From Anaerolineae bacterium (lineage in GTDB: Bacteria; Chloroflexota; Anaerolineae; Aggregatilineales; Phototrophicaceae), in NCBI GenBank assembly GCA_022822545.1, contig JAJEBE010000027.1, positions 1 through 64,000 on the forward strand: a stretch of DNA of 64,000 nucleotides, written 5' to 3'. Each line of letters opens with the position of its first letter. Position 1 is the first letter of the stretch. The notes under the pieces are model-generated. The model made no database searches and had not been told where the DNA came from. It was given only the letters and a program-made list of their open reading frames with translations. Positions 510 through 59,491 of the stretch are shown here, in pieces. A program made the position numbers and the translations under genes.

Positions 510-1697
510 CTAGTCCCGCGCCGTTCCCAGGGTCGCTTGCTCTTCGGCGATGCGCTCTTCTGTGCACTCGAGCTCGGCAAGATGCGCGGCGTCGTCCGCC
601 ATGCGCTCTTCCAGCGACATCTCCGGCAAGCTGGGCGGCTGGCTGAGTACACTGAGCTCTCCGCCCTCGATGACCATGACGGCTGAATCCATTATGGAAT
701 CGGCAACGGTAATCCCAAATTCTTCAGCCGTATCGAGATTGACAGCCACGCCGATGTTCACCCGGGAGCTGATCGCGGTCCTGCTGATATCCAGCGTGCC
801 GTCAATATAAGCGGCGATCATCCGCCCGACATTCACGCCTTCGCCGTAGAAGTCATCAAAACCCGCGCCGACCACCGCGCCATGATGAATCATGCGCGGG
901 GACACGCCGAAGACGGGAAGATCGTAATCTTTGGCCACGCTAAGGACGGCCGGTATACCCCTCGACTCGGTATAGCCGGCGCCAATCATCAACATGTCAA
1001 CGCCTTTGTCGGCCAGGCTGGCTGTCGCCTGGGGCAGATCGGCGGCCGATGCGATGGAGGCGACTTCAACCGTTAAGCCGAGCGCTTCCGCGAATTCAGT
1101 GATCTGACTGACGCCGTAAACGCTTTGCGTTTGGGCCGGATCAACTATCGTGCCGATGGACTGAACATCGGGCATCTGGACTTGGGACAAAGCCACATAT
1201 TGCTCGTAAGGTATCGGCATATGCGTGCCCGTCACATGAGGCATCTTGATGCATGGGGAATCAGCGATGCCGGCGGAATAGGGAGCGCTGACGATGGCGA
1301 AGAACATCGCTGGCGGGTCATCCATATCTTTTGTGATGTTTGCCGTAATCTGCGTGACCGGCGTTGAAAATGTCAGCAGAATATCGGCGCCGCGATCCAG
1401 CGCTTTCTCCACCATTGTGTTTACGTTGGTGACGTCGCTGGCGGCGTCCAGCCAGAAAACATTGATGCGCTCGCCGTTCAGATCCAGGTTCTCATCCAGC
1501 AATTCCCGCTCGGTTGGCGATATCAACTCGCGAGCCTGCAATATATCCCATATGCCCGGTTTGGTGATATCTTCCGTACCGGTGGACCGATAGCGCAGGA
1601 AGGCGATTGTGGGCTTGTCATCATCTTGGGCCAGCGCCGCCGGTGCGGCGAGCAAAAGCGCCGCTATCAGAAGTCCGATCAGTATTCTTGTGTACAT
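510..1697 (-). CDS. ABC transporter substrate-binding protein, array copy 1 (ABC_sub_bind family)
   Basis: A 395-residue secreted binding protein of the ABC_sub_bind (Pfam PF04392, TrpX-like) type, the last of five tandem paralogues served by the permease and ATPase at 7244-9096. The first ~23 residues form a Sec signal (MYTRILIGLLIAALLLAAP...ALAQ) with no lipobox cysteine. Mature landmarks shared with the other copies are KPTIAFLRY at the N-terminus, DRGADILLTFSTPVTQIAANIT (first lobe), SPCIK near residue 150, and a C-terminal helical tail ending LECTEERIAEEQ. The ATG at 1697 has a GGAGG 8 nt upstream. This is the most divergent tail of the five. The family carries aromatic amino acids or other small solutes; the ligand is not readable from sequence. 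Confidence 0.88.
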   Translation of the reverse strand: MYTRILIGLLIAALLLAAPAALAQDDDKPTIAFLRYRSTGTEDITKPGIWDILQARELISPTERELLDENLDLNGERINVFWLDAASDVTNVNTMVEKALDRGADILLTFSTPVTQITANITKDMDDPPAMFFAIVSAPYSAGIADSPCIKMPHVTGTHMPIPYEQYVALSQVQMPDVQSIGTIVDPAQTQSVYGVSQITEFAEALGLTVEVASIASAADLPQATASLADKGVDMLMIGAGYTESRGIPAVLSVAKDYDLPVFGVSPRMIHHGAVVGAGFDDFYGEGVNVGRMIAAYIDGTLDISRTAISSRVNIGVAVNLDTAEEFGITVADSIMDSAVMVIEGGELSVLSQPPSLPEMSLEERMADDAAHLAELECTEERIAEEQATLGTARD

Positions 1698-1757
1698 ATC
1701 TTAATCCTCCGTCTTTGGCTGTTCTCATCGACAAGCGCGCCTTAGATGACGCGACTG

Positions 1758-1777
1758 GTCTCATCATATCATGAAAG
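1758..1777 (-). promoter_or_regulatory. Dyad upstream of array copy 1, degenerate form of the site at 3051-3070
   Basis: GTCTCAT-CATATC-ATGAAAG matches the copy-2 dyad TTTTCAT-CATACC-ATGAAAA at a similar distance (about 60 bp) upstream of the start codon. The arms are less perfect (TCAT/ATGA core). The intervening leader is also conserved between the two genes. Confidence 0.4.
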
Positions 1778-1785
1778 CGCTCGCG

Positions 1786-2988
1786 CTACTCGTCCGCTCC
1801 AGCCAGAGCCGCTTGCTGCTCGGCGATCATCTCGGGCGTACATTCTAGCCCGGCGAGGAATTCCAGGTCGGCGGCGCGGCGTTCTTCCAGGGATATATCT
1901 TCCAAGAAGGGATTCACCTCGGGTAGCCCGGGTGTCACGCCTTCGCTGCTCTGCCCGTCTTCTACCACGAAGTCCGCCACCGCCAGCAGTTCTTGCGAAA
2001 TCTCTGTTTCCTGAGCGGCCGCCACATCCAGATTCACCCCCACGCTCATGTCGGATTGCAAATTGATGCCGGCGGAGGCGATGTCGATTGCGCCCTCCAA
2101 ATGCGCGATCAGCATCCGCGCTGCGATGACGCCTTCCTTGAAGTAGCTGTAGACGCCGGCGCCGATCGTCGCGCCGCGATAGACGGCATTCCCGGCGGTA
2201 TACATGACGGGCAGGCCATGTTCGTTCGCGACTTGTATGATGGTTGGCAGGCCAGCGGCGACCGTGGCTTCTGTGGGAAGAATGAAGGCTTCTATGCCTT
2301 TGCTGACCAGTCCTTCAGCCGCAAGAGTCAAATCGGCGGTCGATACGATTGAGGCGCTTTCGACCTGCAAGCCCAGCGACTCGCCAATGGCCGAGATTTG
2401 GCTCGCGCCGAAGACGCCACTGGGTTCATTGGAGGTGAAGATCGTGCCCACCACTTGCATATCGGGGTTTTGCAGAAGCATCAGGGGGACAATGCGATCG
2501 TAAGGCGCCAGAAACTGAGAACCGGAGATGTGTGCGGGTTTGATGCAGGGCGCGTCAGCGATGCCGGCGGCATAAGGGTTGGACACGACGTTGAAGATCA
2601 CAACGGGCGGGTCTTCCATATCCAGGGTGGCGTTGGCGGCAATTTGCGCCACCGGCGTGGTAATTGTTATCAAGGCATCGGGGTCTCTATCTAGGGCGTC
2701 GCGCACCATGAGATTCGCGAAGCCGATGTCGTAAGCGGCATCGCCCCAGATGATGTTGATGCCTTCGCCCTCGAGGTCTTGCCGCTGGTCCAATACAGCG
2801 CGCTCCTCCTGATCAATATAGCCATAGGCTTGCAGCATATCAAGCGTGCCCTTGACCGACAGGTTGACGTTGGAATGATAACCGAAAGCCAGAATGGCGA
2901 TCGTGGGCTTGCTATCATCTTGAGCCAACGCCGGTGCGGCGAACGAAAGCGCCGCTATCAGGAGTCCAATCAGTAATTTTGTATACAT
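1786..2988 (-). CDS. ABC transporter substrate-binding protein, array copy 2
   Basis: A 400-residue paralogue with a Sec signal (MYTKLLIGLLIAALSFAAPALAQ) nearly identical to copy 1, including the start of the mature chain QDDxKPTIA. The body has DALITITTPVAQIAAN, DAPCIKPAHISG near residue 150 and a tail ELEERR-type helix ending LECTPEMIAEQQAAL. Mature cysteines number exactly two, as in all copies. The ATG at 2988 is preceded by AAGGATTAAGAT, the same leader as copy 1, so the duplication that made copies 1 and 2 included about 60 bp upstream. Only 88 bp separate it from copy 1 with no visible terminator, so the two are probably co-transcribed. A long leader with two dyads precedes it. Ligand unknown. 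Confidence 0.88.
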   Translation of the reverse strand: MYTKLLIGLLIAALSFAAPALAQDDSKPTIAILAFGYHSNVNLSVKGTLDMLQAYGYIDQEERAVLDQRQDLEGEGINIIWGDAAYDIGFANLMVRDALDRDPDALITITTPVAQIAANATLDMEDPPVVIFNVVSNPYAAGIADAPCIKPAHISGSQFLAPYDRIVPLMLLQNPDMQVVGTIFTSNEPSGVFGASQISAIGESLGLQVESASIVSTADLTLAAEGLVSKGIEAFILPTEATVAAGLPTIIQVANEHGLPVMYTAGNAVYRGATIGAGVYSYFKEGVIAARMLIAHLEGAIDIASAGINLQSDMSVGVNLDVAAAQETEISQELLAVADFVVEDGQSSEGVTPGLPEVNPFLEDISLEERRAADLEFLAGLECTPEMIAEQQAALAGADE

Positions 2989-3050
2989 ATCTTAATCCTT
3001 CGTCTTTGGCTGTTTTCATTCGACAAGCGCACTTCAATGCAAGGCCAATG

Positions 3051-3070
3051 TTTTCATCATACCATGAAAA
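3051..3070 (-). promoter_or_regulatory. Operator-like inverted repeat upstream of array copy 2
   Basis: TTTTCAT-CATACC-ATGAAAA has perfect 7-bp arms and a 6-bp centre. It lies about 60 bp upstream of the ATG at 2988. A related dyad sits at the same place upstream of copy 1. I know of no named regulator for it. Confidence 0.45.
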
Positions 3071-3131
3071 CAGACGCGAATTGCGAAGCTGATGACGGCA
3101 AAATAGGGTAACAAATTTTATGTGATATTGC

Positions 3132-3150
3132 ATCTGATTTTATATCAGAT
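3132..3150. promoter_or_regulatory. Second perfect dyad in the copy-2 leader
   Basis: ATCTGAT-TTTAT-ATCAGAT has perfect 7-bp arms around an A+T centre. It lies between the copy-3 terminator (3200-3221) and copy 2. It could be a protein-binding site or a weak stem-loop; no run of T follows on either strand to make it a terminator. Confidence 0.4.
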
Positions 3151-3189
3151 TTACCGATACTGAGGTAAGCGACTATTTCTGCTCGGTAT

Positions 3190-3222
3190 TAAAACAACAG
3201 GACGGTTGTCAGGAACCGTCCT
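3190..3222 (-). terminator. Rho-independent terminator after array copy 3
   Basis: On the minus strand GGACGGTT-CCTGAC-AACCGTCC (stem 3200-3207 with 3214-3221, perfect 8 bp, 6-nt loop) is followed by TGTTGTTTT. It begins 23 bp after the stop at 3245. The loop is identical to that of the terminator after copy 4. Confidence 0.75.
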
Positions 3223-3244
3223 TCAGCTTAATTGTTTGTCTTGG

Positions 3245-4447
3245 CTAGCTGTCGGTGGCGTCAAGCTGTGCTTGCTGCTCGGCGATCATCTCGGGACTAC
3301 ACTCCAGCGCGGCCAGGAATTCCAGGTCAGCTTCGCGGCGTTCCTCAGCGGACATCGCTTGCGGATTCGTGGCGGCATCATCGACGTCAGCGGCCATGCC
3401 CGTGGATCTTTCCCCGTCTTGAATGAGGAAATTCGCCATCGCCAGCAGGTCATCCGAGATTTCCAAGCCTTGCGCAGCCGCTGTATCCAGGTTTATCGCC
3501 ACCCCAAAACTGCGTGACTGATTGATGCCGATGTCGGCGATATCGACATCGCCGCTGAGATAGGCATTCAGGATGCGAGCCGCAATCACTCCCTCTTTGT
3601 AAAAGCTGTGGAAACCGGCGCCAACGGTCGCTCCGCGATACACTTGCTGGATGATCGGCGCGTACAGCGGTACGCCGTATTCCGCTGTCAGCCCTACCAG
3701 GACGGGCGTGCCTTGCAGTGTCAATGGGTTGATGACAAGAACGATGGCTTCCACGCCCTTGCCCAATAGACTCTCCGCCGCAACGTTCAGGTCCGCCGCA
3801 GTAATGGCAGATGCTATCTCGACCGTCAAACCAAGCGATTCGCCAATCTTCGTGATGATCTCAGCGCCGACAAGGCTAGTCGGTTGATCTGGCGATACGA
3901 TGGTGCCGATAACTTTAATATCCGGATCCTGAACCAAAACAAGCGGCACATAATCTGCAAAGGACATCAAGGGCTGCGTACCCGTGACATGATTCGGCTT
4001 GACGCAGGGGGCGTCAGCAATGCCGGTGGAGAAGGGCGTCGTGACCAGACTGAAGAGGATCGCCGGCGGGTCTTCCAGGTCACGGGTTGCCGAGACAGCG
4101 ATTTGCGCCACTTGCGTCGTGACGGTGACCAAGACATCGGCGCCTTTGTCCAGGACATCTTCCACGATCAGACTGACCGCTGACAGATCGAAACCGGCAT
4201 CGCGGTACAAGAGATTGATGCTTTCGCCTTCGAGATCATAGGACTCATTCAAGGCGGCGCGCTCCGCGGCGGTCAGATAGCCGTAAGCCTCAAGAGAATC
4301 GAGAAGTCCGTCGGTAGCTGCTGTGACTGGAGCGGTGCCGGCGTAACGCAGAAAGGCAATCGTCGGCTTGTCATCTTCACCTGCTACTGTCAGGGGCATA
4401 AGCATAGCCAACACCATTGCTGCGATTAACACCAGATGCTTGTACAT
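3245..4447 (-). CDS. ABC transporter substrate-binding protein, array copy 3
   Basis: A 400-residue paralogue. I chose the ATG at 4447 (MYKHLVLI...) because GAAGAGG lies 6 nt upstream; an in-frame TTG at 4453 would add only two residues. The signal peptide is MYKHLVLIAAMVLAMLMPLTVAG. Family landmarks are KPTIAFLRYAG, DKGADVLVTVTTQVAQIA, DAPCVKPNHVTGTQ and a tail EERREADLEFLAALECSPEMIAEQQ. It is bounded by terminators on both sides (3200 and 4562), so it is probably an independent transcription unit with its own A+T-rich promoter region. Exactly two cysteines occur in the mature chain. Ligand unknown. Confidence 0.88.
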   Translation of the reverse strand: MYKHLVLIAAMVLAMLMPLTVAGEDDKPTIAFLRYAGTAPVTAATDGLLDSLEAYGYLTAAERAALNESYDLEGESINLLYRDAGFDLSAVSLIVEDVLDKGADVLVTVTTQVAQIAVSATRDLEDPPAILFSLVTTPFSTGIADAPCVKPNHVTGTQPLMSFADYVPLVLVQDPDIKVIGTIVSPDQPTSLVGAEIITKIGESLGLTVEIASAITAADLNVAAESLLGKGVEAIVLVINPLTLQGTPVLVGLTAEYGVPLYAPIIQQVYRGATVGAGFHSFYKEGVIAARILNAYLSGDVDIADIGINQSRSFGVAINLDTAAAQGLEISDDLLAMANFLIQDGERSTGMAADVDDAATNPQAMSAEERREADLEFLAALECSPEMIAEQQAQLDATDS

Positions 4448-4561
4448 GCGCAACCTCTTCCTGATTATTTTTGAGATTATGTCTTATATTATATATATTA
4501 TTGAATACTTACAGGATATATTGATCATTATATGCATTTATGTTTTGGCGTCGAAACAAAA
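4448..4561 (-). promoter_or_regulatory. A+T-rich promoter region of array copy 3
   Basis: This 110-bp stretch is far richer in A+T than its surroundings. On the minus strand it holds several TATAAT-like hexamers (around 4483-4500 and 4528) just after the copy-4 terminator. I cannot assign one -35/-10 pair with confidence. Confidence 0.4.
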
Positions 4562-4585
4562 GGGCGGTTGTCAGGAACCGTCCTT
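4550..4585 (-). terminator. Rho-independent terminator after array copy 4
   Basis: On the minus strand GGACGGTT-CCTGAC-AACCGCCC (stem 4576-4583 with 4562-4569, one G-U pair) is followed by TTTTGTTTCG. It starts about 35 bp past the stop at 4619 and shares stem and loop with the terminator at 3200-3221. Confidence 0.75.
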
Positions 4586-4618
4586 CGGTTTAGTTGCTTA
4601 CTGGGATATTTGTCTTGA

Positions 4619-5830
4619 CTAGCTGTCGGCGGCGTCTAGTTCCGCCTGCTGCTCAGCGATCATTTCCGGCGTACATTCAAGCGCGGCCAGGAAGGCCAGG
4701 TCGGCGGCGCGGCGCTCGTCGAGCGTCATTTCCGGCAGCTCAGTGCCAACTTCGGGCAAGTCGGGCGTGACTCCTTCAGTGCTTGCCCCATCCCTAATCG
4801 TCCAATCCGCCTTTGCCAGCAATTCGTCGGCGATCTCCACGCCTGCCTCCGCCGCCGCATCGAGGTTGATCGCGACGGTGAAGCCGGGCTTTAAGTTGAC
4901 GCTCAGACGCGAGATATCGATATCGCCGTTGAGATGACCGATCAACATGCGGGCGGCAATGACGCCTTCGCGATAAAGGCTATAAAAGTCGGCGCCCACG
5001 GTCGCGCCGCGATAGACATGTTCCGCCACGATGGAAAAGACCGGTATCCCGCCGTGCTCCTCAGCAGTGCTTACAATCGCGTCCAATCCGATAGATGTGG
5101 TATAGCTGGCGGGCAGGGCGATCGCCTCAACACCTTTGCTAATCAGGCTCGCGGTCGCCAAAGACAAATCCGCCACTGCGACAACCGGAGCCACTTCGAC
5201 CCGCACCCCAAGTTCGCCGGCAAGTTTGCTGATTCGTTCCGCGCCGAATACGCTATTGGGTTCAGCCAAATTCACGATTGTGCCAACCACCTTCATATCC
5301 GGGTCCTGCACCTTCAGCAGCGGCACAAACTCATCGTAGGGTATATTGGTCTGCGTACCGGCGATGTGGCTGTCTTTGATGCAAGGGGCGTCGGCAATGC
5401 CAGCGAAATAGGGAGCGGTGACGATAGCGAAAATAATAGCCGGCGGGTCGTCCATTTGGCGCGTGATGTTGGCGGCGATCTGGGACACAGGCGTTGAAAG
5501 CGTCAAGAGCGTATCGGCGCCCCGGTCCAGCGCATCCTCCACCATTATGTTCGCCGTCGGAATATCAAAGTCCGCGTCGCTATAAATGACATTAATGCGC
5601 TCGCCTTGCAGGTCTTCGGCTTCGTCCAGAATGGCGCGTTCTTCCGCATTGACCATGCCATAGGCTTCAAACATATCCAGAATGCCTTTTTCGGCCAAAG
5701 CCGTAAGGGTCGTGCCGCCGTAACGCAGGATAGCGATTGTAGGTTTGGCATCATCTTGCGCCAGCGCTGGCGGCAGAATTGAACACAGTAGTGCAATAAC
5801 CACCAGCAATAACAAGATGCGCTGTAGCAT
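4619..5830 (-). CDS. ABC transporter substrate-binding protein, array copy 4
   Basis: A 403-residue paralogue. The signal peptide MLQRILLLLVVIALLCSILPPALAQ contains one cysteine, but its context (LLCS, well before the AxAQ site) does not look like a processed lipobox. The mature chain begins DDAKPTIAILRYGG, with DRGADTLLTLSTPVSQIAANIT, DAPCIKDSHIAGTQ and a tail DERRAADLAFLAALECTPEMIAEQQAEL. The ATG at 5830 follows GGAAAG. It is 101 bp downstream of copy 5 with no terminator between, so permease, ATPase, copy 5 and copy 4 may form one operon ending at the hairpin near 4570. Ligand unknown. Confidence 0.88.
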   Translation of the reverse strand: MLQRILLLLVVIALLCSILPPALAQDDAKPTIAILRYGGTTLTALAEKGILDMFEAYGMVNAEERAILDEAEDLQGERINVIYSDADFDIPTANIMVEDALDRGADTLLTLSTPVSQIAANITRQMDDPPAIIFAIVTAPYFAGIADAPCIKDSHIAGTQTNIPYDEFVPLLKVQDPDMKVVGTIVNLAEPNSVFGAERISKLAGELGVRVEVAPVVAVADLSLATASLISKGVEAIALPASYTTSIGLDAIVSTAEEHGGIPVFSIVAEHVYRGATVGADFYSLYREGVIAARMLIGHLNGDIDISRLSVNLKPGFTVAINLDAAAEAGVEIADELLAKADWTIRDGASTEGVTPDLPEVGTELPEMTLDERRAADLAFLAALECTPEMIAEQQAELDAADS

Positions 5831-5931
5831 GACGTTTACTTTCCAAGGGCTATTTTATGGATACCTACCATCTTCATTGTATACGAATGCAGCGATTAAG
5901 GAGGCTTGACCGGCATTTGCCATTGTCTGGC

Positions 5932-7119
5932 TCATTCGCCCTCCAGCGCTGTTTGTTGCTCGGCGATTATCTCCGGCGTACATTCAAGCGCGGCGAGGAA
6001 TTCGAGGTCAGCGGCGCGGCGCTCGTCGAGCGGCATTTCCGGCAGGGCGATCTCGACCTCGGGATACTGGGCGGAGACGCCTTGCTCCGTCTCTCCGTTC
6101 TCAACGATATAGGCCGCGCCATCCAGCAGAGCTTGGGAAATCTCGACATCTTGCAAATCGGCCGCGTCAAGATTGACGGCGAAGGCGAAGTCATCGCTCT
6201 CGTAGATGGCGGTGTCCGCGATGTCGATATCGCCGTTGAGATGCGCGATCAGCATATTTCCGGCGATAGCGCCTTGTTTGTAGAGGCCGAAGAAGCCGCC
6301 GCCGATCGTGCCGCCGCGATAGGCGTTCTGCGGCGCGGAGAAGAGGACCGGCAGCCCGTAGTCATAGGAGAGGGACAAGAGCAGTTGAAAGCCTTGGAAG
6401 GTGAAGATGGGGATGATAATCGCCTCGGCGCCCCGGTTCGCCAGCTTATCGACCGCTTGATACAAATCCGGCGTCACAACGATGGACTCGGCTTCGACGG
6501 TCAAGCCGAGGGACTGACCGATTTCACTAATCCGCGCGACGCCGACTTCGCTGGCGCGCTGCTGCGGCGAATAGATGGCGCCGACCACTTTCATGTCCGG
6601 ATCCTGCATCAGCAGCAGGGGCACGATGTCTTCATAGTTGGTGACGGGCACGGTGCCGGTGACAAAGTCCGGTTTGACGCAGGATGTTTCCGCCACGCCG
6701 GTGATATAGGGTCCCGAAGTCACGGTGAAGATCAGCTTGGGCGGGTCGATAAATTCGCGGATGGCATAATAGGCGATCTGTGTCATTTGCGTCGTGAATG
6801 TGACCAGGACATCAGCGCCTCTGTCGATGGCTCGCTCGATGATGACATTGGCTTCGGTTCGATCAAAGAGGGCATCGCCATAAACGATATTGATATTCTC
6901 GCCTTCGATGGACCGCTCCTCATCCAGCAGCGCGCGTTCTTCTTCGTTGATGAAACCGTAGACCTGCAACATATCCAGGATGGCTTTTTCCGCCAGGGCG
7001 ACGTTGCTGGAATCGCCCCATTTCAAAAAGGCCACCGTCGGCTTGTCATCGCCTTGCGCGCCTGAAGCGGGAACGATTAGCAAAGTGATAACGATGACCA
7101 GCAGCGAAGCATTTTTCAT
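5932..7119 (-). CDS. ABC transporter substrate-binding protein, array copy 5 (next to its ATPase)
   Basis: A 395-residue paralogue, the copy closest to the transporter genes and so probably the ancestral partner. Sec signal MKNASLLVIVITLLIVPASGAQ; mature start GDDKPTVAFLKWGD. It carries DRGADVLVTFTTQMTQIA, ETSCVKPDFVTGTV and the tail DERRAADLEFLAALECTPEIIAEQQ. A strong GAGGAGG lies 9 nt before the ATG at 7119. In the central lobe it has a GGTIGGGFFGLYKQG segment where the others read GATVGAxFxSxYKEG, which may mark a different ligand pocket. It follows the ATPase gene by 124 bp. Confidence 0.88.
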   Translation of the reverse strand: MKNASLLVIVITLLIVPASGAQGDDKPTVAFLKWGDSSNVALAEKAILDMLQVYGFINEEERALLDEERSIEGENINIVYGDALFDRTEANVIIERAIDRGADVLVTFTTQMTQIAYYAIREFIDPPKLIFTVTSGPYITGVAETSCVKPDFVTGTVPVTNYEDIVPLLLMQDPDMKVVGAIYSPQQRASEVGVARISEIGQSLGLTVEAESIVVTPDLYQAVDKLANRGAEAIIIPIFTFQGFQLLLSLSYDYGLPVLFSAPQNAYRGGTIGGGFFGLYKQGAIAGNMLIAHLNGDIDIADTAIYESDDFAFAVNLDAADLQDVEISQALLDGAAYIVENGETEQGVSAQYPEVEIALPEMPLDERRAADLEFLAALECTPEIIAEQQTALEGE

Positions 7120-12942: not shown

Positions 12943-13028
12943 ATCCAGGAGTATAACCGTGAGCGGACGGAATGGCATTGGGCGCGGGTGGCGTATTCGT
13001 GCTGCGGAATGAGGTAAGTAAAAGGTGG

Positions 13029-13085
13029 GCGGAGTATGGAAAAGAGTGGACAGAGTATGGGAAAAGAGGGTGCTGAGTATGGCTG
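13029..13085. repeat. Three phased copies of GAGTATGG upstream of the anion permease
   Basis: GAGTATGG occurs at 13032, 13053 and 13075, at 21- and 22-bp spacing, with partly conserved flanks (GGAAAAGAG). On the minus strand they read CCATACTC about 90-140 bp upstream of the permease start. The helical phasing suggests a direct-repeat regulator site, but they could be a degenerate tandem repeat. Confidence 0.4.
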
Positions 13086-13354
13086 GAGACAGACAAAATT
13101 GCTAAATATATCGATACAGTATGGATAAGGGCGACTATCTGGGCAGTTTTTTGGATTTTTCGTTTGAGATAGGCATGCTTGTGATTGACATAAAGTTGGC
13201 GTGACTGTGAATTGGAAGATGATCATAGATTGAAGTGTAGCAGATATTTTGTGCGAATGGGCGACCAAATGTTCGCGTATTAAGGTCTAATTTTCTCGGT
13301 CGCTCGCGAGTTAGGTCATGGCTCATACAAAATAGCTATCCCATTAGCACCGAA

Positions 13355-28204: not shown

Positions 28205-28276
28205 GCGTAGGGGCGAGCCACCGGGTCGCCCGTTACATCGCCATTTTGCATTTGGGCGACTCTTGAGTCGCCCGCT
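28205..28276. repeat. Family A repeat (two-arm copy)
   Basis: GTAGGGGCGAGCCACCGGGT followed by CGCCCGTTACATCG, then TTTGGGCGACTCTTGAGTCG and CCCGC. CAGGGCTTGATTG, the tail seen in other copies, lies 40 bp upstream at 28163. Confidence 0.75.
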
Positions 28277-28413
28277 TGCAACATCCGCTACCTGTCATCC
28301 TTCGCATGACTAACTTGGAATTACTGCGATGGCGGCAGGCGGCCGGGGGCGGCTGAAACGAGCGGCAGGCCCGCGATTTTCGCCACGCCTCAAAATCGCC
28401 GCGCTCAACCCTT

Positions 28414-28440
28414 GCATTTCAGAACACCTGTGCTATAATA
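28414..28440 (+). promoter_or_regulatory. Extended -10 promoter inside duplicated element copy 1
   Basis: TGCTATAAT (extended -10, TGn plus perfect TATAAT) at about 28431-28439, with TTGCAT 16 bp upstream as a weak -35. It is conserved exactly at 57558-57566 in copy 2, with TTCCAT as the upstream hexamer. Confidence 0.6.
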
Positions 28441-28469
28441 GCTCTAATCCCAACCAACTGAGGACCGCC

Positions 28470-28751
28470 ATGCCCAAAACCAGATACTTCTCAAACCCTG
28501 AAAAAACCCAGGCCATGGACCGGCTCAAGTTTCATCACGACATCAACGCCCCCCACCTGCTTACAAGCATCATTCAGCCTACCCATCGCCGCTGGCGCAA
28601 AAACCTGCCCCGCCGCCAAAATGCGACTTTGTCCGAAAAGAGTTTTCCCTTGTCCGACAAACGGACAATGTCGGCTAAATTCATAACTAATAAACAACTA
28701 TATAATAATCCAAATCTTACTCCCGATCCCTCCATTCAACCGCCAGCATAG
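28470..28751 (+). CDS. Small uncharacterised protein of the duplicated element (copy 1)
   Basis: 93 residues, not recognised. The ATG at 28470 has GAGG 6 nt upstream and a strong promoter 30 bp before it. N-terminus MPKTRYFSNPEKTQAMDRL aligns with the copy-2 product (MPNTGNFSDREKRRAMDLL), sharing about 15 of 27 residues including AMD, H-x-D and NA. Both then contain QNATLSEKSFxLSDKRTMS, coded by the TTGTCCG array. Indels between the two copies add up to a multiple of three before that block, so the frame is kept, which favours translation. C-termini differ and look low-complexity (Asn/Pro-rich). No membrane segment or signal. It could equally be an incidental ORF in a regulatory or mobile repeat. 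Confidence 0.4.
   Translation: MPKTRYFSNPEKTQAMDRLKFHHDINAPHLLTSIIQPTHRRWRKNLPRRQNATLSEKSFPLSDKRTMSAKFITNKQLYNNPNLTPDPSIQPPA
28629..28668. promoter_or_regulatory. Phased TTGTCCG array in element copy 1
   Basis: TTGTCCG at 28629 and 28650 (21 bp apart) and inverted CGGACAA at 28662, which pairs with the second as a 7-bp stem with a 5-nt loop. Order and spacing are identical in copy 2 (57732, 57753, 57765) although the spacer bases differ. Confidence 0.5.
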
Positions 28752-28873
28752 AATTCGGAATATGTCCTGTATCCTTGAAATTCACCACTCCCGCGCCCCG
28801 GCGGGCTGTGTCTACGCGCGCCCTGTGGTTAAAATAAGTCCTAATACCTTCCGACAGGCTACACGAGGGCAAC

Positions 28874-30007
28874 ATGAAAATCACGGATGTCAAAGTTTAT
28901 CTGGCGCGGGAATGGCGCACTTTCTGCTTTGTCGTCGTCGAAACCGACGAAGGCATCAGCGGCATCGGCGAAGCCGGCATCACCGGCCGCGAGCTCGCCG
29001 TGCGTGGCGCCATCGAACACTTCCGCCCCTTGCTCATCGGGCAAGACCCCTTCCGCACGGAGCACATCTGGCAACTGCTCTTTCGCGGCGGCTTCTTCCC
29101 GGCGCAGCGGATCTTGACCGCCGCCATCGCCGCCATCGACATCGCCCTCTGGGATATCAAGGGCAAAGCGCTCGGCGTCCCCGTCTATGACTTGCTCGGC
29201 GGACGCGTCCGCGACCGCGTCCTCACTTACAATCACAACGGCGGCGACACCGTCGAAGAACTGGTCGAATGCTGCCAGCGCTCGCTGGACGAGGGTTGGA
29301 AGGTGCTGCGCTGGGGCTTGGCGCATAAACCCGGCGATATCCTCGAACCCGATGTCGCCGTGCGCGACGCCATCAAAGAATTCGAAGCGCTGCGGCTGGC
29401 GCTGGGCGACGAGATCAAGCTCGCCATTGATGTACACACCCGGCTGAATATGGCCGATTCGCTCTGGCTCTGCCAGGAAGCGGAACAATACCGCCCCTAT
29501 TTCATCGAAGATCCGCTGCGGGTCGAGAATGCGCAATCCTACCGCCACTTGCGCAGCCGCACCACCGCGCCCCTCGCTGCCGGCGAACAATACAACTCCA
29601 AATGGGAATTCCGCCAGGTCATTGAAGAAGAGTTGATCGATTACGCCCGCATCGATCTCTGCATCTGCGGCGGGCTGACCGAAGCCAAGAAAATCGCCGC
29701 CATGTGCGAGACGCACTACATCGAGTTGGCAGTGCACAACCCCATCGGACCAGTCGCCACCGCCGCCTTCCTGCATCTCTGCCTGTCCGTGCCCAATTGC
29801 GCTGTGCAAGAGCTGCCGCGCCGCCCCGGCGAGAGCCTGCCCGATCTCGTGCTCAACCAGCCGGAATGGGAAGACGGCTACCTGCTGCCGCCGACCGCGC
29901 CCGGCCTGGGCATCAACTTTGATCCCGAAGCGCTAGGCAAATATCCTTTCAGTATGGGCGAGCTCAAGCACCTGCGCCGGGCTGACGGCTCGGTGACGAA
30001 TTGGTAG
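28874..30007 (+). CDS. Enolase-superfamily sugar-acid dehydratase (galactonate/mannonate dehydratase-like)
   Basis: 377 residues of the mandelate racemase/muconate lactonising type. These enzymes use Mg to abstract the proton alpha to a carboxylate; the DgoD-like branch dehydrates aldonates to 2-keto-3-deoxyaldonates. Visible: N-terminal cap MKITDVKVYLAREWRTFCFV, IAAIDIALWDIKGKALGVPV near residue 85, metal ligands in LAIDVHTRL (Asp, with a following His) near 194, FIEDPL (Glu) near 218 and AAGEQ (Glu) near 243, and the catalytic histidine region LAVHNPIGPVATA near 295. GAGGGC precedes the ATG at 28874. Followed by an SMP-30 lactonase, a sensible preceding step. Exact aldonate unknown. Confidence 0.87.
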   Translation: MKITDVKVYLAREWRTFCFVVVETDEGISGIGEAGITGRELAVRGAIEHFRPLLIGQDPFRTEHIWQLLFRGGFFPAQRILTAAIAAIDIALWDIKGKALGVPVYDLLGGRVRDRVLTYNHNGGDTVEELVECCQRSLDEGWKVLRWGLAHKPGDILEPDVAVRDAIKEFEALRLALGDEIKLAIDVHTRLNMADSLWLCQEAEQYRPYFIEDPLRVENAQSYRHLRSRTTAPLAAGEQYNSKWEFRQVIEEELIDYARIDLCICGGLTEAKKIAAMCETHYIELAVHNPIGPVATAAFLHLCLSVPNCAVQELPRRPGESLPDLVLNQPEWEDGYLLPPTAPGLGINFDPEALGKYPFSMGELKHLRRADGSVTNW

Positions 30008-55385: not shown

Positions 55386-56639
55386 TTATTGCGGCAGGGT
55401 GAAACTGAAGGTCGTCCCGTGTGATTTGACGCTGTCCGCCCAGATGTTGCCGCCATGCGCTTCGATGAAACCGCGGGCGATCGCCAGGCCCAGGCCGGTG
55501 CCGCGCGCGCCATCGTCATCGCGAGCGCGCGATCCCTCGCCGCGGTAGAAGCTCTCGAAGAGACGCGGCAAGACATCTTCCGAGATGAAGGAACCGCTGT
55601 TGTGGATCTCGATGCGGACTTCGCCCTCGCCCCGCCAGGCGCTTAAGGTCACAGTGACGCCGGTATCGGCATATTTGATGGCGTTATCCACCAGGTTGGT
55701 CAAGACGCGCTGGATTTTGTCCGGCGCCATGGTGATCATATCGACATCGTCGGCGACCTCGCCGACCAGCGTGACGCCATGTTGCTTCGCCTTCGCTTCC
55801 ATGCTGCCGAGCGTATCGGAGATCAAATCGCGAATTGACGCTTGCTGCAAGTCCAGCTTGAGATGCCCCACATCCAGTTGCGCCAGCTCGAATAGGTCGT
55901 CGATCAAGCGACTGAGATGCTCGATTTCGGCGCGGCTGTTATCGAGATAGCGTCCCACCGTCTCCTCATCATCGACGACGCCATCGAGGATCGCCTCGAT
56001 CATGACTCGCAATGACGTCAGCGGGGTGCGCAGGTCATGAGAGACCCAGGCGGTCAGATCGCGGCGGGTCTGCTCCAGTTGACGCTTCTGCTCTTCGACC
56101 TCTTGCAGGTTGCCCGCCATGTTATTGAAGGTATCAGCCAGTTGGGCGATCTCGTCATTGCCGGAGATTTTGAGGCGGACGGTGAAATCGCGGCGGGCGA
56201 GGGATTGGGTGGCCTCATGCAATTTGCTCAGGCGGTCGGTCATAGTCTTGGAGGCGAAGAAGCCGATGGTCAGCGCCGATAAGCCGGCGAAGACCAATAA
56301 GACCGAGGTGAGGCTGAGGTAGTGATTTTCGATGAAAGTGAAGCGGGCGATCACCCAGACATTCAGGAAGATCATCAGCACCAGCAAGGCGATGACCATC
56401 CAGACTGCCCAGCGCAAACTGCGAAACCACTCGAGGATGCCCAGGCGGTAAAACGTGAAGGACAGCAGGGATGTCATGACGCCGGTCATGGTCATGAAGG
56501 CGACCAACTGCTGCACCTCGCTGCCGGGCAAATCGAACATGATCAATTCGCTGAAGAGGGTGCCGGCGATAGGGATCACCAGCACCACCAGGAATATCAG
56601 GACGGGATTCCGCGATAGCTGCTGGTAGACGCGCGCCAT
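55386..56639 (-). CDS. Sensor histidine kinase (HAMP, HisKA, HATPase_c)
   Basis: 417 residues. Four hydrophobic segments in the first ~140 residues with short loops, so the sensor may be membrane-embedded. HAMP around 140-195 (DRLSKLHEATQSLARRDF...), dimerisation/phospho-acceptor SHDLRTPLTSLRVMIEAILDG near 210, N-box LVDNAIKYADTGV near 325, and G-box GTGLGLAIARGFIEAHGGNIWAD near 390. On signal it autophosphorylates at the histidine and passes phosphate to the regulator encoded 14 bp upstream. Stimulus unknown. Confidence 0.93.
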   Translation of the reverse strand: MARVYQQLSRNPVLIFLVVLVIPIAGTLFSELIMFDLPGSEVQQLVAFMTMTGVMTSLLSFTFYRLGILEWFRSLRWAVWMVIALLVLMIFLNVWVIARFTFIENHYLSLTSVLLVFAGLSALTIGFFASKTMTDRLSKLHEATQSLARRDFTVRLKISGNDEIAQLADTFNNMAGNLQEVEEQKRQLEQTRRDLTAWVSHDLRTPLTSLRVMIEAILDGVVDDEETVGRYLDNSRAEIEHLSRLIDDLFELAQLDVGHLKLDLQQASIRDLISDTLGSMEAKAKQHGVTLVGEVADDVDMITMAPDKIQRVLTNLVDNAIKYADTGVTVTLSAWRGEGEVRIEIHNSGSFISEDVLPRLFESFYRGEGSRARDDDGARGTGLGLAIARGFIEAHGGNIWADSVKSHGTTFSFTLPQ

Positions 56640-56653
56640 AATACTTGCTCTCT

Positions 56654-57382
56654 CTAATTTTCGGCCGGCGCTTCGAATTTGTAGCCGACGCCCCAGACCG
56701 TCTGCACATAGATCGGCTTGCTCGGGTTCGGCTCAAGCTTTTCCCGCAGGCGCCGCACATGCACGGTCACGGTGCTCTCATCGCCGTAGAATTCGTAGCC
56801 CCAAACGTTGTTGAGCAATTGCTCCCGCTTGAAGACCTGCCGCGGATGCCGCAGGAGGAACCAGAGCAGGTCAAATTCCTTGGCTGTCAACGAGACCGCT
56901 TTGCCGTTGACGCTGACTGAGCGGCTGCGCGGATCGACCAACAGGCCGGCGTATTCCAGCGGTTGCTCGCTTTCGTTTTCCGGCGGGGACGCGCGCCGCA
57001 GGACCGTCTTCACCCGCGCCACCAACTCGCGCGGACTGAATGGTTTGGTCACATAATCATCGGCGCCGAGCTCCAGGCCGGCCACGCGATCGACTTCGTT
57101 GCTGCGCGCGGTCAGCAGGATGATCGGGATATCGCCATCGGCGCGCAAGGGATTGTGCTCCGATGCGCCCCTCAAGCGCCGCGTGATGGAGAAACCGTCA
57201 ACCCCCGGCAGCATGATATCCAGGACGATCAGATCGGGTGGACCCTCCTGCAGAATGGAGAGGGCCTGCGGTCCAGTCTCGGCTTCAGTGACTTGGAAGC
57301 CTTCCAGTTCCAGATAACGGCGCACGACTTCGCGTATAGTCCGCTCATCATCGACCACCAGGATCTTGCGTTTCTTGGACAT
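56654..57382 (-). CDS. OmpR/PhoB-family response regulator
   Basis: 242 residues. Receiver domain: KILVVDDERTIREVVRRYLE (acidic pocket), LIVLDIMLPGVDG (phospho-acceptor Asp near 55), ILLTARSNEVDRVAGLELGADDYVTKPFSPRELVARV (conserved Thr and Lys). C-terminal winged helix: VSLTAKEFDLLWFLLRHPRQVFKREQLLNNVWGYEFYGDESTVTVHVRRLREKLEPNPSKPIYVQTVWGVGYKFEA. First gene of a two-gene operon with the kinase. An insert around residue 75 (RRLRGASEHNPLRADGDIP) is slightly longer than usual. Targets unknown. Confidence 0.95.
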   Translation of the reverse strand: MSKKRKILVVDDERTIREVVRRYLELEGFQVTEAETGPQALSILQEGPPDLIVLDIMLPGVDGFSITRRLRGASEHNPLRADGDIPIILLTARSNEVDRVAGLELGADDYVTKPFSPRELVARVKTVLRRASPPENESEQPLEYAGLLVDPRSRSVSVNGKAVSLTAKEFDLLWFLLRHPRQVFKREQLLNNVWGYEFYGDESTVTVHVRRLREKLEPNPSKPIYVQTVWGVGYKFEAPAEN

Positions 57383-57540
57383 ATCCGCCTGCCAGTTCCC
57401 CCAGCGCTTAATGCTCTGTATTCTAGCTTAATTTGTATTTCTATCCGAAATGTTACTTGGCTGTTATCCGCCCGGGCGGGGGAAACGAGCGGCATGCCCA
57501 CGATTTTCGCCGCGCCTCAAAATTGCCGCATTCAGCCCTT

Positions 57541-57567
57541 CCATTTCAGAACACCTGTGCTATAATA
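57541..57567 (+). promoter_or_regulatory. Extended -10 promoter inside duplicated element copy 2
   Basis: TGTGCTATAATAGCTC, identical to copy 1 over the whole -10 region, with TTTCAGAACACC conserved upstream. It reads toward the small ORF and the M20 peptidase gene. Confidence 0.6.
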
Positions 57568-57596
57568 GCTCCAATCCCAACCAACTGAGGGCCGCC

Positions 57597-58076
57597 ATGC
57601 CTAATACCGGAAACTTCTCAGACCGTGAAAAACGCCGCGCCATGGACCTCCTCAATATCCATGACGACTTCAACGCCTTCTGCCCGCTTGCAGGGTCAGC
57701 GTATCCGTCGCCGCTGGCGCAAAATGCGACTTTGTCCGAAAAAAGTTTTTCTTTGTCCGACAAACGGACAATGTCATATATAGCCCTAACACACATCAAC
57801 AATCTGATATCCTCGCGTTTACTCCCGACCCCTCCATTCATCCGCCAACAAATCCCAACGCCGCCCGTAAAGACTCCCATAACGCCAATAGCGACGAAAG
57901 TGGCGAATGCCATTGATATGACAACTTCGACCTTGCCATCCGAAAACCTCTGTGCCCTCAGTGTCTCTGTGGTGAATTCCCCCAGCCTGGAATTCGGGAT
58001 ATGTCCTCTATCCTTGAAATCCGCCACTCCCGGATATCTTCGTGGCGGAAAAACTGACGGCATTGCGTTAAGATGA
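57597..58076 (+). CDS. Small uncharacterised protein of the duplicated element (copy 2)
   Basis: 159 residues, not recognised. ATG 57597 with GAGG upstream. The first 27 residues (MPNTGNFSDREKRRAMDLL...) and the block QNATLSEKSFSLSDKRTMS align with the 93-residue copy-1 product. The C-terminal ~85 residues are Thr/Pro/Ser-rich and partly coded by a family B repeat (ENLCALSVSVVNS), so the true protein may be shorter or the ORF may be degenerate. It ends 35 bp before the M20 peptidase start. Confidence 0.35.
   Translation: MPNTGNFSDREKRRAMDLLNIHDDFNAFCPLAGSAYPSPLAQNATLSEKSFSLSDKRTMSYIALTHINNLISSRLLPTPPFIRQQIPTPPVKTPITPIATKVANAIDMTTSTLPSENLCALSVSVVNSPSLEFGICPLSLKSATPGYLRGGKTDGIALR
57732..57771. 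promoter_or_regulatory. Phased TTGTCCG array in element copy 2
   Basis: TTGTCCG at 57732 and 57753 and inverted CGGACAA at 57765: the same 21-bp phase and 5-nt loop as in copy 1. Confidence 0.5.
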
Positions 58077-58111
58077 TGGGCAAGACCAACACATAAGGCG
58101 GAGGCGAAAGC

Positions 58112-59491
58112 ATGACCGACACAATCCAGAGCGCAATCGATTACATGCAGGAGACGCGGGACCGGATGATGGAGGATTACAAGGCGCTGCTGCGCTTCCC
58201 TTCCATCAGCGCCGACCCGGCCTACGCCGATGATGTATGCGCCTGCGCCGACTGGATCGTGAGCCAGTTGGCTGCGATGGGCTTTGAAAACTGCGAAGCC
58301 ATCGCCACGGAAGGCTTGCCGGTGGTCTACGGCGAGTGGCTGAAGGCCGGCGCCGATAAGCCCACCATCCTCGTCTACGCCCACTACGATGTGCAGCCGG
58401 TTGATCCCCTGCCGCTTTGGAATTCGGAACCCTTCGAGGCTGTCATCCGCGACGGCAAGATCTTTGCCCGCGGCGCCAGCGACAATAAAGCCGGCGTCTG
58501 GGGCAATCTCAAGACATTCGAGGCGCTGCTGCGCGCCAACGGGACCTTGCCCGTCAATATCAAGATCATGTTTGAAGGCGAAGAGGAATCCGGCTCGCCC
58601 AGCATTGAAGCCTTCGTCGAGGCGAACAAAGAACGGCTGCGCGCGGATGTCCTGCTGAATTGCGATGGCGACTTCGCGCCGGCTGATCCGAAACTCTATT
58701 ACGGCGGGCGCGGCATGGTCACTGCCCAGGTTCGAGTCAGCGGGCCGGCAGCCGATATCCACTCCGGTCTCTACGGCGGTCTGGTGCAGAACCCGCTTCA
58801 TGTCGCCGGAGCGATCATTGGCTCCTTCCATGACGCGGCGGGACGGATTCAACTGCCGGGCTATTACGATGATGTGATGGAAGCTGCGCCGGCCGAAAAG
58901 GATCGCATTGAAGCGGGGTTCCAGGCGGACTCACTGTTGGAAGGCGCCGGTGTCGACTGCTTTTGGGGAGAATCGATCGCGCCTGCTTCCGAGCGCGCTA
59001 CTGTTTACCCTACGCTTGATATCGTCGGCATGTGGGGCGGTTACCAGGGACCCGGCATCAAAACGATAATCCCGGCCGAAGCCGGCTTCAAAATCACCAT
59101 GCGGCTGGCGCCGGATCAAGATCCCCGCGCCATCTCTCGGACGCTCAAGGATTACGTAGAAAGCTTCGCCACCGATACCGTTCAAGTAGAATGCAAGATT
59201 GGCGAAAACGCTTGGTACTTCCAGCTCGAGACGGAGGGACCTTGGCTGGAGGCGGTGCAATCGGCGATTGAAGAGACGGTGGGGCTGCGGGCGCAGCTTG
59301 TGCGGACGGGCGGCTCGATTCCCATCCTCGGCGTCTTCAACCGGCTGATCGGCTTGCCGATTACGGCTTTCGCCTTTGGCCATGGCGAGGGCATCCACTC
59401 GCCGAACGAATACCTGGAGATCGACACCTTCTTCACTTCGCTGGAGGCGGCGGCGCGCCTGTATCACAATTTGGGGGAAGTTGCTGGCTGA
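58112..59491 (+). CDS. M20-family dipeptidase/metallopeptidase
   Basis: 459 residues. Two-zinc aminoacylase/carnosinase-type peptidase. Visible: FPSISADPAYADDV, ILVYAHYDVQPVDPLPLW near residue 90 (first zinc histidine and Asp), GRGASDNKAGVWGNLKTFEAL near 128 (bridging Asp), MFEGEEESGSP near 157 (catalytic Glu-Glu), NCDGDFAP near 190, the lid-domain DIHSGLYGG near 218, and FGHGEGIHSPNEYLEIDTFF near the C-terminus (last histidine). GGAGG before the ATG at 58112. No signal, so it cleaves dipeptides or N-acyl amino acids in the cytoplasm. Its upstream region is the duplicated element. Confidence 0.93.
   Translation: MTDTIQSAIDYMQETRDRMMEDYKALLRFPSISADPAYADDVCACADWIVSQLAAMGFENCEAIATEGLPVVYGEWLKAGADKPTILVYAHYDVQPVDPLPLWNSEPFEAVIRDGKIFARGASDNKAGVWGNLKTFEALLRANGTLPVNIKIMFEGEEESGSPSIEAFVEANKERLRADVLLNCDGDFAPADPKLYYGGRGMVTAQVRVSGPAADIHSGLYGGLVQNPLHVAGAIIGSFHDAAGRIQLPGYYDDVMEAAPAEKDRIEAGFQADSLLEGAGVDCFWGESIAPASERATVYPTLDIVGMWGGYQGPGIKTIIPAEAGFKITMRLAPDQDPRAISRTLKDYVESFATDTVQVECKIGENAWYFQLETEGPWLEAVQSAIEETVGLRAQLVRTGGSIPILGVFNRLIGLPITAFAFGHGEGIHSPNEYLEIDTFFTSLEAAARLYHNLGEVAG

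Follow-up and report, generated by a model that had tools for sequence, protein, structure and literature searches.

What are the two related elements that recur within the window, by which we mean the whole 64-kb stretch of Anaerolineae DNA analysed here, and from what do they derive? A repeat search returned an 84%-identical block of 219 nt (28347-28565 versus 57474-57692) and an 86%-identical array block of 71 nt (28617-28687 versus 57720-57790). Within the window, the array core TTGTCCGACAAACGGACAA is found at these two places and nowhere else. A sequence-only reading had described an extended -10 (TGTGCTATAAT), a ribosome site and an ATG as shared, together with the array and the closing block, and both copies have them all. 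Their features are collected in Table 1, where the left end of copy 1 was set by alignment against copy 2. The gap to the next gene, first given as 70-75 bp, is 81-82 bp when counted to the start codon (28792 to 28874, and 58031 to 58112).

Table 1. Features of the two element copies in the window.
Feature	Position	Strand	Description
Element, copy 1	28354..28792	+	~439 bp; terS-like relic, truncated; includes promoter, array and closing block
Promoter box CAGAACACCTGTGCTATAAT, copy 1	28420..28439	+	common to terS-terL loci as [TC]AGAACAnnTGTnCTA
Relic ORF, copy 1	28470..28751	+	93 aa
TTGTCCG array, copy 1	28628..28674	+	TTTGTCCG-n-TTGTCCGACAAACGGACAA-TGTCGG
Closing block, copy 1	28751..28792	+	GAATTCGGAATATGTCCTG...CACCACTCCC; right end; absent from parent gene
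Element, copy 2	57481..58031	+	~551 bp; ends uncertain by at most 3 bp; missing from the syntenic site in G013
Promoter box CAGAACACCTGTGCTATAAT, copy 2	57547..57566	+	
Relic ORF, copy 2	57597..58076	+	frame open to array; second half of HTH deleted; runs past element end
TTGTCCG array, copy 2	57731..57775	+	
Closing block, copy 2	57990..58031	+	right end

A separate dispersed intergenic repeat, GTAGGGGCGACTC...GTCGCCC...CATGACTAACTTGGAATTACTG (window 28255-28330, and elsewhere), is often found directly left of the elements, and many stand-alone copies of it exist in the sister species G013. At 510-7065 of the window, several paralogous ORFs, each ~400 aa long, stand in tandem (repeat families D3, D4 and D7, spacing 1.3-1.5 kb).

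Copy number and insertion of the family

Both copies are real, but the family is not limited to two: a DNA search of the assembly found about 26 members, 70-89% alike, in the genome of the window (G000), plus related forms. Members were also present in the sister G013 (MAG jk18x7bins.23), and in G009, G017 and G021; all genomes compared are draft MAGs. Genome-wide, 28 occurrences of TTGTCCGACAAACGGACAA with at most one mismatch were scored, compared to 0 for a reversed-pattern control, which rules out a chance array.

The flanks of copy 2 are joined in G013, window 56600-57480 corresponding to G013:C3:131225-132105 and 58032 onward to C3:130384-131223. Since the sister species thus has a clean empty site for the 551-bp copy, with pre-insertion sequence GGGCGGGAGGACATC, copy 2 is an inserted element. 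Its ends read 5'-GGGAAACGAGC...CACCACTCCC-3', matching as GGGA.../...TCCC only; a terminal inverted repeat, if any, is ~4 bp long at most, a target duplication is not clearly seen, and the junction has a 3-bp overlap, ambiguous with microhomology. There is no simple empty site for copy 1, because it stands at a rearrangement junction, its flanking genes lying ~15 kb apart and in the other orientation in G013. About half of the G000 copies occupy the same position as a G013 array locus. At two intergenic spots (L200/L327 and L203/L326), a window-type element is present in G000 and a different TTGTCCG-array module in G013.

The copies had been read as possibly a non-autonomous element, matching no described family, and both points held: there are ~26 copies, one with an empty site in the sister species, and no known IS/MITE or RNA family matched. 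A known IS/MITE or transposase origin was rejected for want of any match above cut-off; for the protein of the parent gene described below, the only hit of that kind was to HTH_Tnp_1, below threshold. No match was obtained in Rfam at gathering level for elements or arrays, meaning that a known structured RNA was rejected too. No defence gene was found for the family, no member in viral contigs, phage records or INPHARED, and no description of these repeats in the literature.

A TerS-like parent gene and its relic

Intact parent genes exist at G000:C49:101697-102341 (215 aa) and at C41. Both share the promoter with the elements, as well as the codons as far as the end of the array. The repeat retains roughly the first 90-105 codons of the parent, followed by an unrelated closing block, and residues 1-93 of the copy 1 relic ORF are 63% identical to the intact 215-aa protein at C49.

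Conservation was measured over 41 copies. The majority fraction was 0.92 in the array (gaps 0.1%) and 0.87 in the promoter; in the ORF it was 0.79 over codons 1-25 (11% gaps) and 0.63 over the second half of the HTH (25% gaps), a half which is deleted or frameshifted in most copies. Diversity was equal at the three codon positions (0.109/0.095/0.086), with no third-position excess. The proposal of a selected small protein does not survive these figures, and a portable small protein was rejected on the same equal variation and on the loss of frame in many copies. As first read, the frame is open from ATG to array in both window copies, but it is kept in just 34 of 56 loci, intact genes included. 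Because the HTH codons decay without third-position excess while promoter and array are kept, the small ORF is a relic, and the element proper is the promoter plus the array. We conclude from these sequence comparisons that the window copies are shrunken, non-autonomous, inserted derivatives of a stand-alone TerS-like gene.

The many broken ORFs would be expected of a plain repeat, but the promoter and the array are far better conserved than the ORF. In the plain-repeat alternative, an unrelated transposase would mobilise a MITE-like sequence, and the array would be conserved merely through young copies or shared recombination. The ~26 copies and the copy 2 empty site speak for it, and the closing block and adjacent repeats are indeed mosaics of other intergenic repeats. 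We hold it improbable nevertheless, given the near absence of a terminal inverted repeat (~4 bp at most), the lack of a clear target duplication, the conservation of array and promoter above that of the ORF lying between them, and the recurrence of this array type across the genus in sequence contexts unrelated to one another, where its words differ and track the resident genes (next section). The elements do resemble MITEs and REP-RAYT systems in being short, dispersed, non-autonomous and related to a gene elsewhere; unlike these, they have no terminal repeats, and the parent protein has no transposase or HUH domain.

The AlphaFold model of the protein consists of an HTH (helices 9-54), a disordered linker, a helical hairpin (101-157) and beta strands (172-179). 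It agrees with the TerS plan of N-terminal HTH, central helical hairpin and C-terminal segment (PMC9611059, PMC6854486). In most genomes of the genus, a third subfamily is encoded directly upstream of a large terminase (TerL), and profile comparison related it to the array-bearing sets with a probability of 99.2-99.4%. This TerL is genuine (PHROG_2, E 1e-37; Pfam Terminase_6N; 2400 phage records). As a related subfamily lies directly upstream of a genuine TerL, the array-bearing protein is homologous to TerS. No array-bearing gene adjoins TerL, and the TerL-adjacent terS genes have no array. None of PHROGs, Pfam and NCBIfam calls the array-bearing protein TerS, and Foldseek against the PDB returned nothing below E 0.001, Sf6 TerS appearing at E 3.8 only. 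We therefore term the protein TerS-like, and not a packaging TerS, as it is not beside TerL and matches no curated TerS family.

The terS-terL pair itself has host genes around it; in several species, an amidase or an M42 peptidase recurs next to it. In one annotated region, no capsid genes were found near it, the flanks being host metabolic genes. No terS-terL locus was detected in G000.

The promoter box provides a further link. [TC]AGAACAnnTGTnCTA is found with at most two mismatches upstream of 12 of 12 terS-terL loci, as in the window elements (two matches with at most one mismatch in the 64 kb), usually 7 nt after a degenerate GCGACC....GTCGC. The Gram-positive-type LexA site is GAAC-N4-GTTC, which we take the box to resemble; this likeness makes an SOS-type induction plausible. 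Between box and terS, 60-150 nt upstream of terS-terL (L418-L426), lies a conserved leader of ~75 nt, AGAGATGCCC...GGGCATCTCTTTT, which looks like a structured RNA and had no Rfam match.

Arrays and their words, inside genes and dispersed

In almost all TerS-like genes of the genus, the codons of the disordered linker, just after the HTH and before the oligomerisation hairpin, contain an array of inverted and direct copies of a 7-8 bp word W, laid out as W - 13 nt (A-tract/T-tract) - inverted W - ~4 nt - inverted W. The word W differs among paralogs (TTGTCCG, ATGTCCG, CTGTCCG, ATGGCCG, C(C/T)GCCG, CGATAG, CGTAG), and is TTGGCGC or TTTGCGC in a second subfamily of array-bearing genes; in arrays of the TTGTCCG class, the second site is direct rather than inverted. 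By direct reading, centre-to-centre spacings are ~20 and ~11 bp, near whole helical turns. The linker encoded by the array is disordered in the AlphaFold model (pLDDT below 50), leaving its DNA free to act as a site. In TerS-like genes of G021 and G009 (L408:162-1062 and L399), in-frame tandem CGGACACAACG repeats (peptide HGHNADAKALPQS) replace the palindromic array.

When 35 arrays were aligned, both sides had changed in 8 of 11 pairs, and the covariation score of word and inverted word was 0.201, compared to 0.070 after shuffling and at most 0.046 after sliding. Just 2 of ~334 paired cells were G-U, which favours DNA over RNA for the function of the array. Judging from this alignment, the array is a co-varying inverted-repeat DNA site. 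That it should instead be an RNA device, acting as a transcript hairpin (attenuator, small RNA or packaging RNA), would fit with the promoter upstream, with the covarying stems and with the good folding of A/C-word arrays as RNA (z ~ -4.5). We find this very improbable: in addition to the scarcity of G-U pairs, the second site of the TTGTCCG class is direct, both arrays in the window fold poorly (z -2.0 and -0.9), Rfam gave no match, and the words follow the DNA-recognition helix, as reported below.

Arrays also occur free of genes. A single pattern detected 11 of them in G004, 6 in G001 and 5 in G031, with 0 for the reversed-pattern control, and a covariance-model search scoring 150 first-look candidates per genome found them in at least 22 of 34 genomes. 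In the typical module, GCGACC-nnnn-(G)GTCGC is followed by 17-20 nt, then by a -10 (GCTACACT, for example), and finally by a leader and the array. Modules measure 0.1-0.7 kb, have host genes as neighbours, and most are without a working gene.

The dispersed words match the resident genes: CTATCG and ATTGCC modules besides TTGTCCG in G000, CTACGG in G029, GCCGCC in G002, G022 and G017, ATGTCCG in G031, CTGTCCG in G001, G004 and G018. With word classes assigned by eye, 19 of the 20 gene-word classes had orphan arrays in their own genome; permutations averaged 6.8 and never reached 19. Keeping one genome per likely sister group, so that relatedness was roughly controlled, the count was 12 of 13 (p ~7e-5). 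In G014, G032, G008 and G019, some orphan arrays have words for which the assembly contains no matching gene. Similar neighbourhoods carry different words in different species: upstream of amidase genes the word is ATGTCCG in G031 (L244) and TTGTCCG in G000, G013 and G014, and beside a fumarase-type gene it is CGGACAG in G001 and CGGACAT in G031. Over 25 genes, similarity of the recognition helix correlated with that of the word (r 0.61); the partial Mantel r was 0.50 given the C-terminal domain, and 0.50 given the preceding HTH segment, and no permutation came as high. Words that change with the protein from species to species suggest a self-recognising system, a TerS-like/array pairing which seems to have been described by nobody so far.

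Several modules are composite, with two arrays ~120 nt apart, ATTGCC-type then CTATCG-type (L312, L316, L320, L328, L329, L331, L353). On the minus strand of the window, at 12980-13280, a further promoter module has GCGAACATTTGGTCGC with GCTACACT after it, and then come direct repeats of the CCATACTnnGTCCAC type, which are also found at G000:C57:152363 (L318); this is possibly another word class.

Putative packaging sites or operators

The explanation that we prefer, and to which we give about an even chance of being right, is that the window copies are non-autonomous TerS-like derivatives and that the modules are recognition sites in trans, most likely pac-like. The HTH of a TerS-like protein would bind the array word within the protein's own gene as well as in the dispersed modules, each made of promoter, leader or relic ORF, and array. 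Once the shared promoter type is switched on, presumably by induction, the protein would mark these chromosomal modules for the TerL of the conserved terS-terL locus, or for that of a phage, and module plus neighbouring DNA would be packaged and spread, by a mode of insertion that is likewise conjectural. Binding of the arrays by TerS-like proteins and the packaging purpose are both inferred; what bears on specific binding is the co-variation of word and recognition helix. A pac-like role is the most natural reading because the pac site of P22 lies within its terS gene (PMC9611059). The conserved promoter counts against it, having no explanation in a module that is only a pac site. So do several of the results above: array-bearing genes are not beside TerL and the TerL-adjacent terS genes are free of arrays, curated families do not recognise a TerS and the PDB gave nothing below E 0.001, phage records and viral contigs yielded no member, the annotated terS-terL region showed no capsid genes, G000 gave no terS-terL locus, and some genomes contain orphan arrays whose gene is missing.

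In the main rival, the TerS-like proteins would be domesticated transcription regulators: packaging would have been lost, the arrays would be operators (roadblock or autoregulatory) placed after inducible promoters, and the modules would form the regulon. Promoter and downstream array are coupled in every module, the array-bearing genes have no TerL neighbour, modules close to amidase and fumarase-type genes are found again in other species, with a change of word, and of the 22 window-type elements for which a downstream gene was called, 17 precede a gene in the same direction. Against this, the genes after the modules are of many kinds and often possess a promoter of their own, placed between the array and the start codon, the presence of modules varies between sister species, and in most of them no ORF is left for the promoter to serve. 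We regard the operator reading as possible, though doubtful. The suggestion that the element is a portable promoter for the metabolic gene found no support.

Comparison with known systems helps to place the putative pac-like modules. P22-type terS genes share with the TerS-like genes the succession of HTH, helical hairpin and C-terminal part, and a site (putative here) in their own coding sequence (PMC9611059). In contrast to P22, the TerS-like genes are stand-alone and chromosomal, with no TerL beside them and with several paralogs per genome bearing different words; gene-free copies of the site number dozens, and these are inverted-repeat arrays, whereas P22 has one asymmetric site of 22 bp. 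The gene transfer agent RcGTA is similar in that a terS-terL pair is kept vertically in the host chromosome. Its TerS has no HTH and packages without specificity (PMC6854486), whereas the HTH and specific-looking sites are prominent here, and capsid genes are absent near the annotated terS-terL region. PICIs/SaPIs and PICMIs are chromosomal and SOS-type inducible, and certain PICIs redirect packaging through a TerS that they encode themselves; the modules differ from them in having no integrase, replication, capsid-remodelling or packaging-interference genes, the unit being one gene or none. Lambda O is a DNA-binding protein whose gene contains its repeated sites (the ori-lambda iterons), placed after the codons for the HTH and different from one relative to another. 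The TerS-like genes also carry repeated sites after their HTH codons that vary among relatives, but they are chromosomal paralogs, their sites are dispersed, and no replication role is known for them.

A wider proposal, which we advance tentatively and consider rather unlikely, is that of a chromosomal packaging network, in which stand-alone TerS-like proteins of several mutually distinct specificities, each with its dispersed promoter-pac modules, would feed a conserved terS-terL engine, GTA-like or borrowed from a phage. The modules would then be the smallest known packaging parasites.

Site recognition by TerS has resisted study because binding in vitro is weak and few pac sites are available (PMC9611059). 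Dozens of TerS-like proteins paired with paralog-specific words offer a recognition code that is ready for testing. If the arrays are operators, the TerS-like proteins would be a new family of terminases domesticated as regulators, with orthogonal regulons. Should the modules direct packaging, this whole uncultured Anaerolineae genus may use a dispersed, site-specific system to move chromosomal DNA, one that would be neither a prophage nor a classical satellite.
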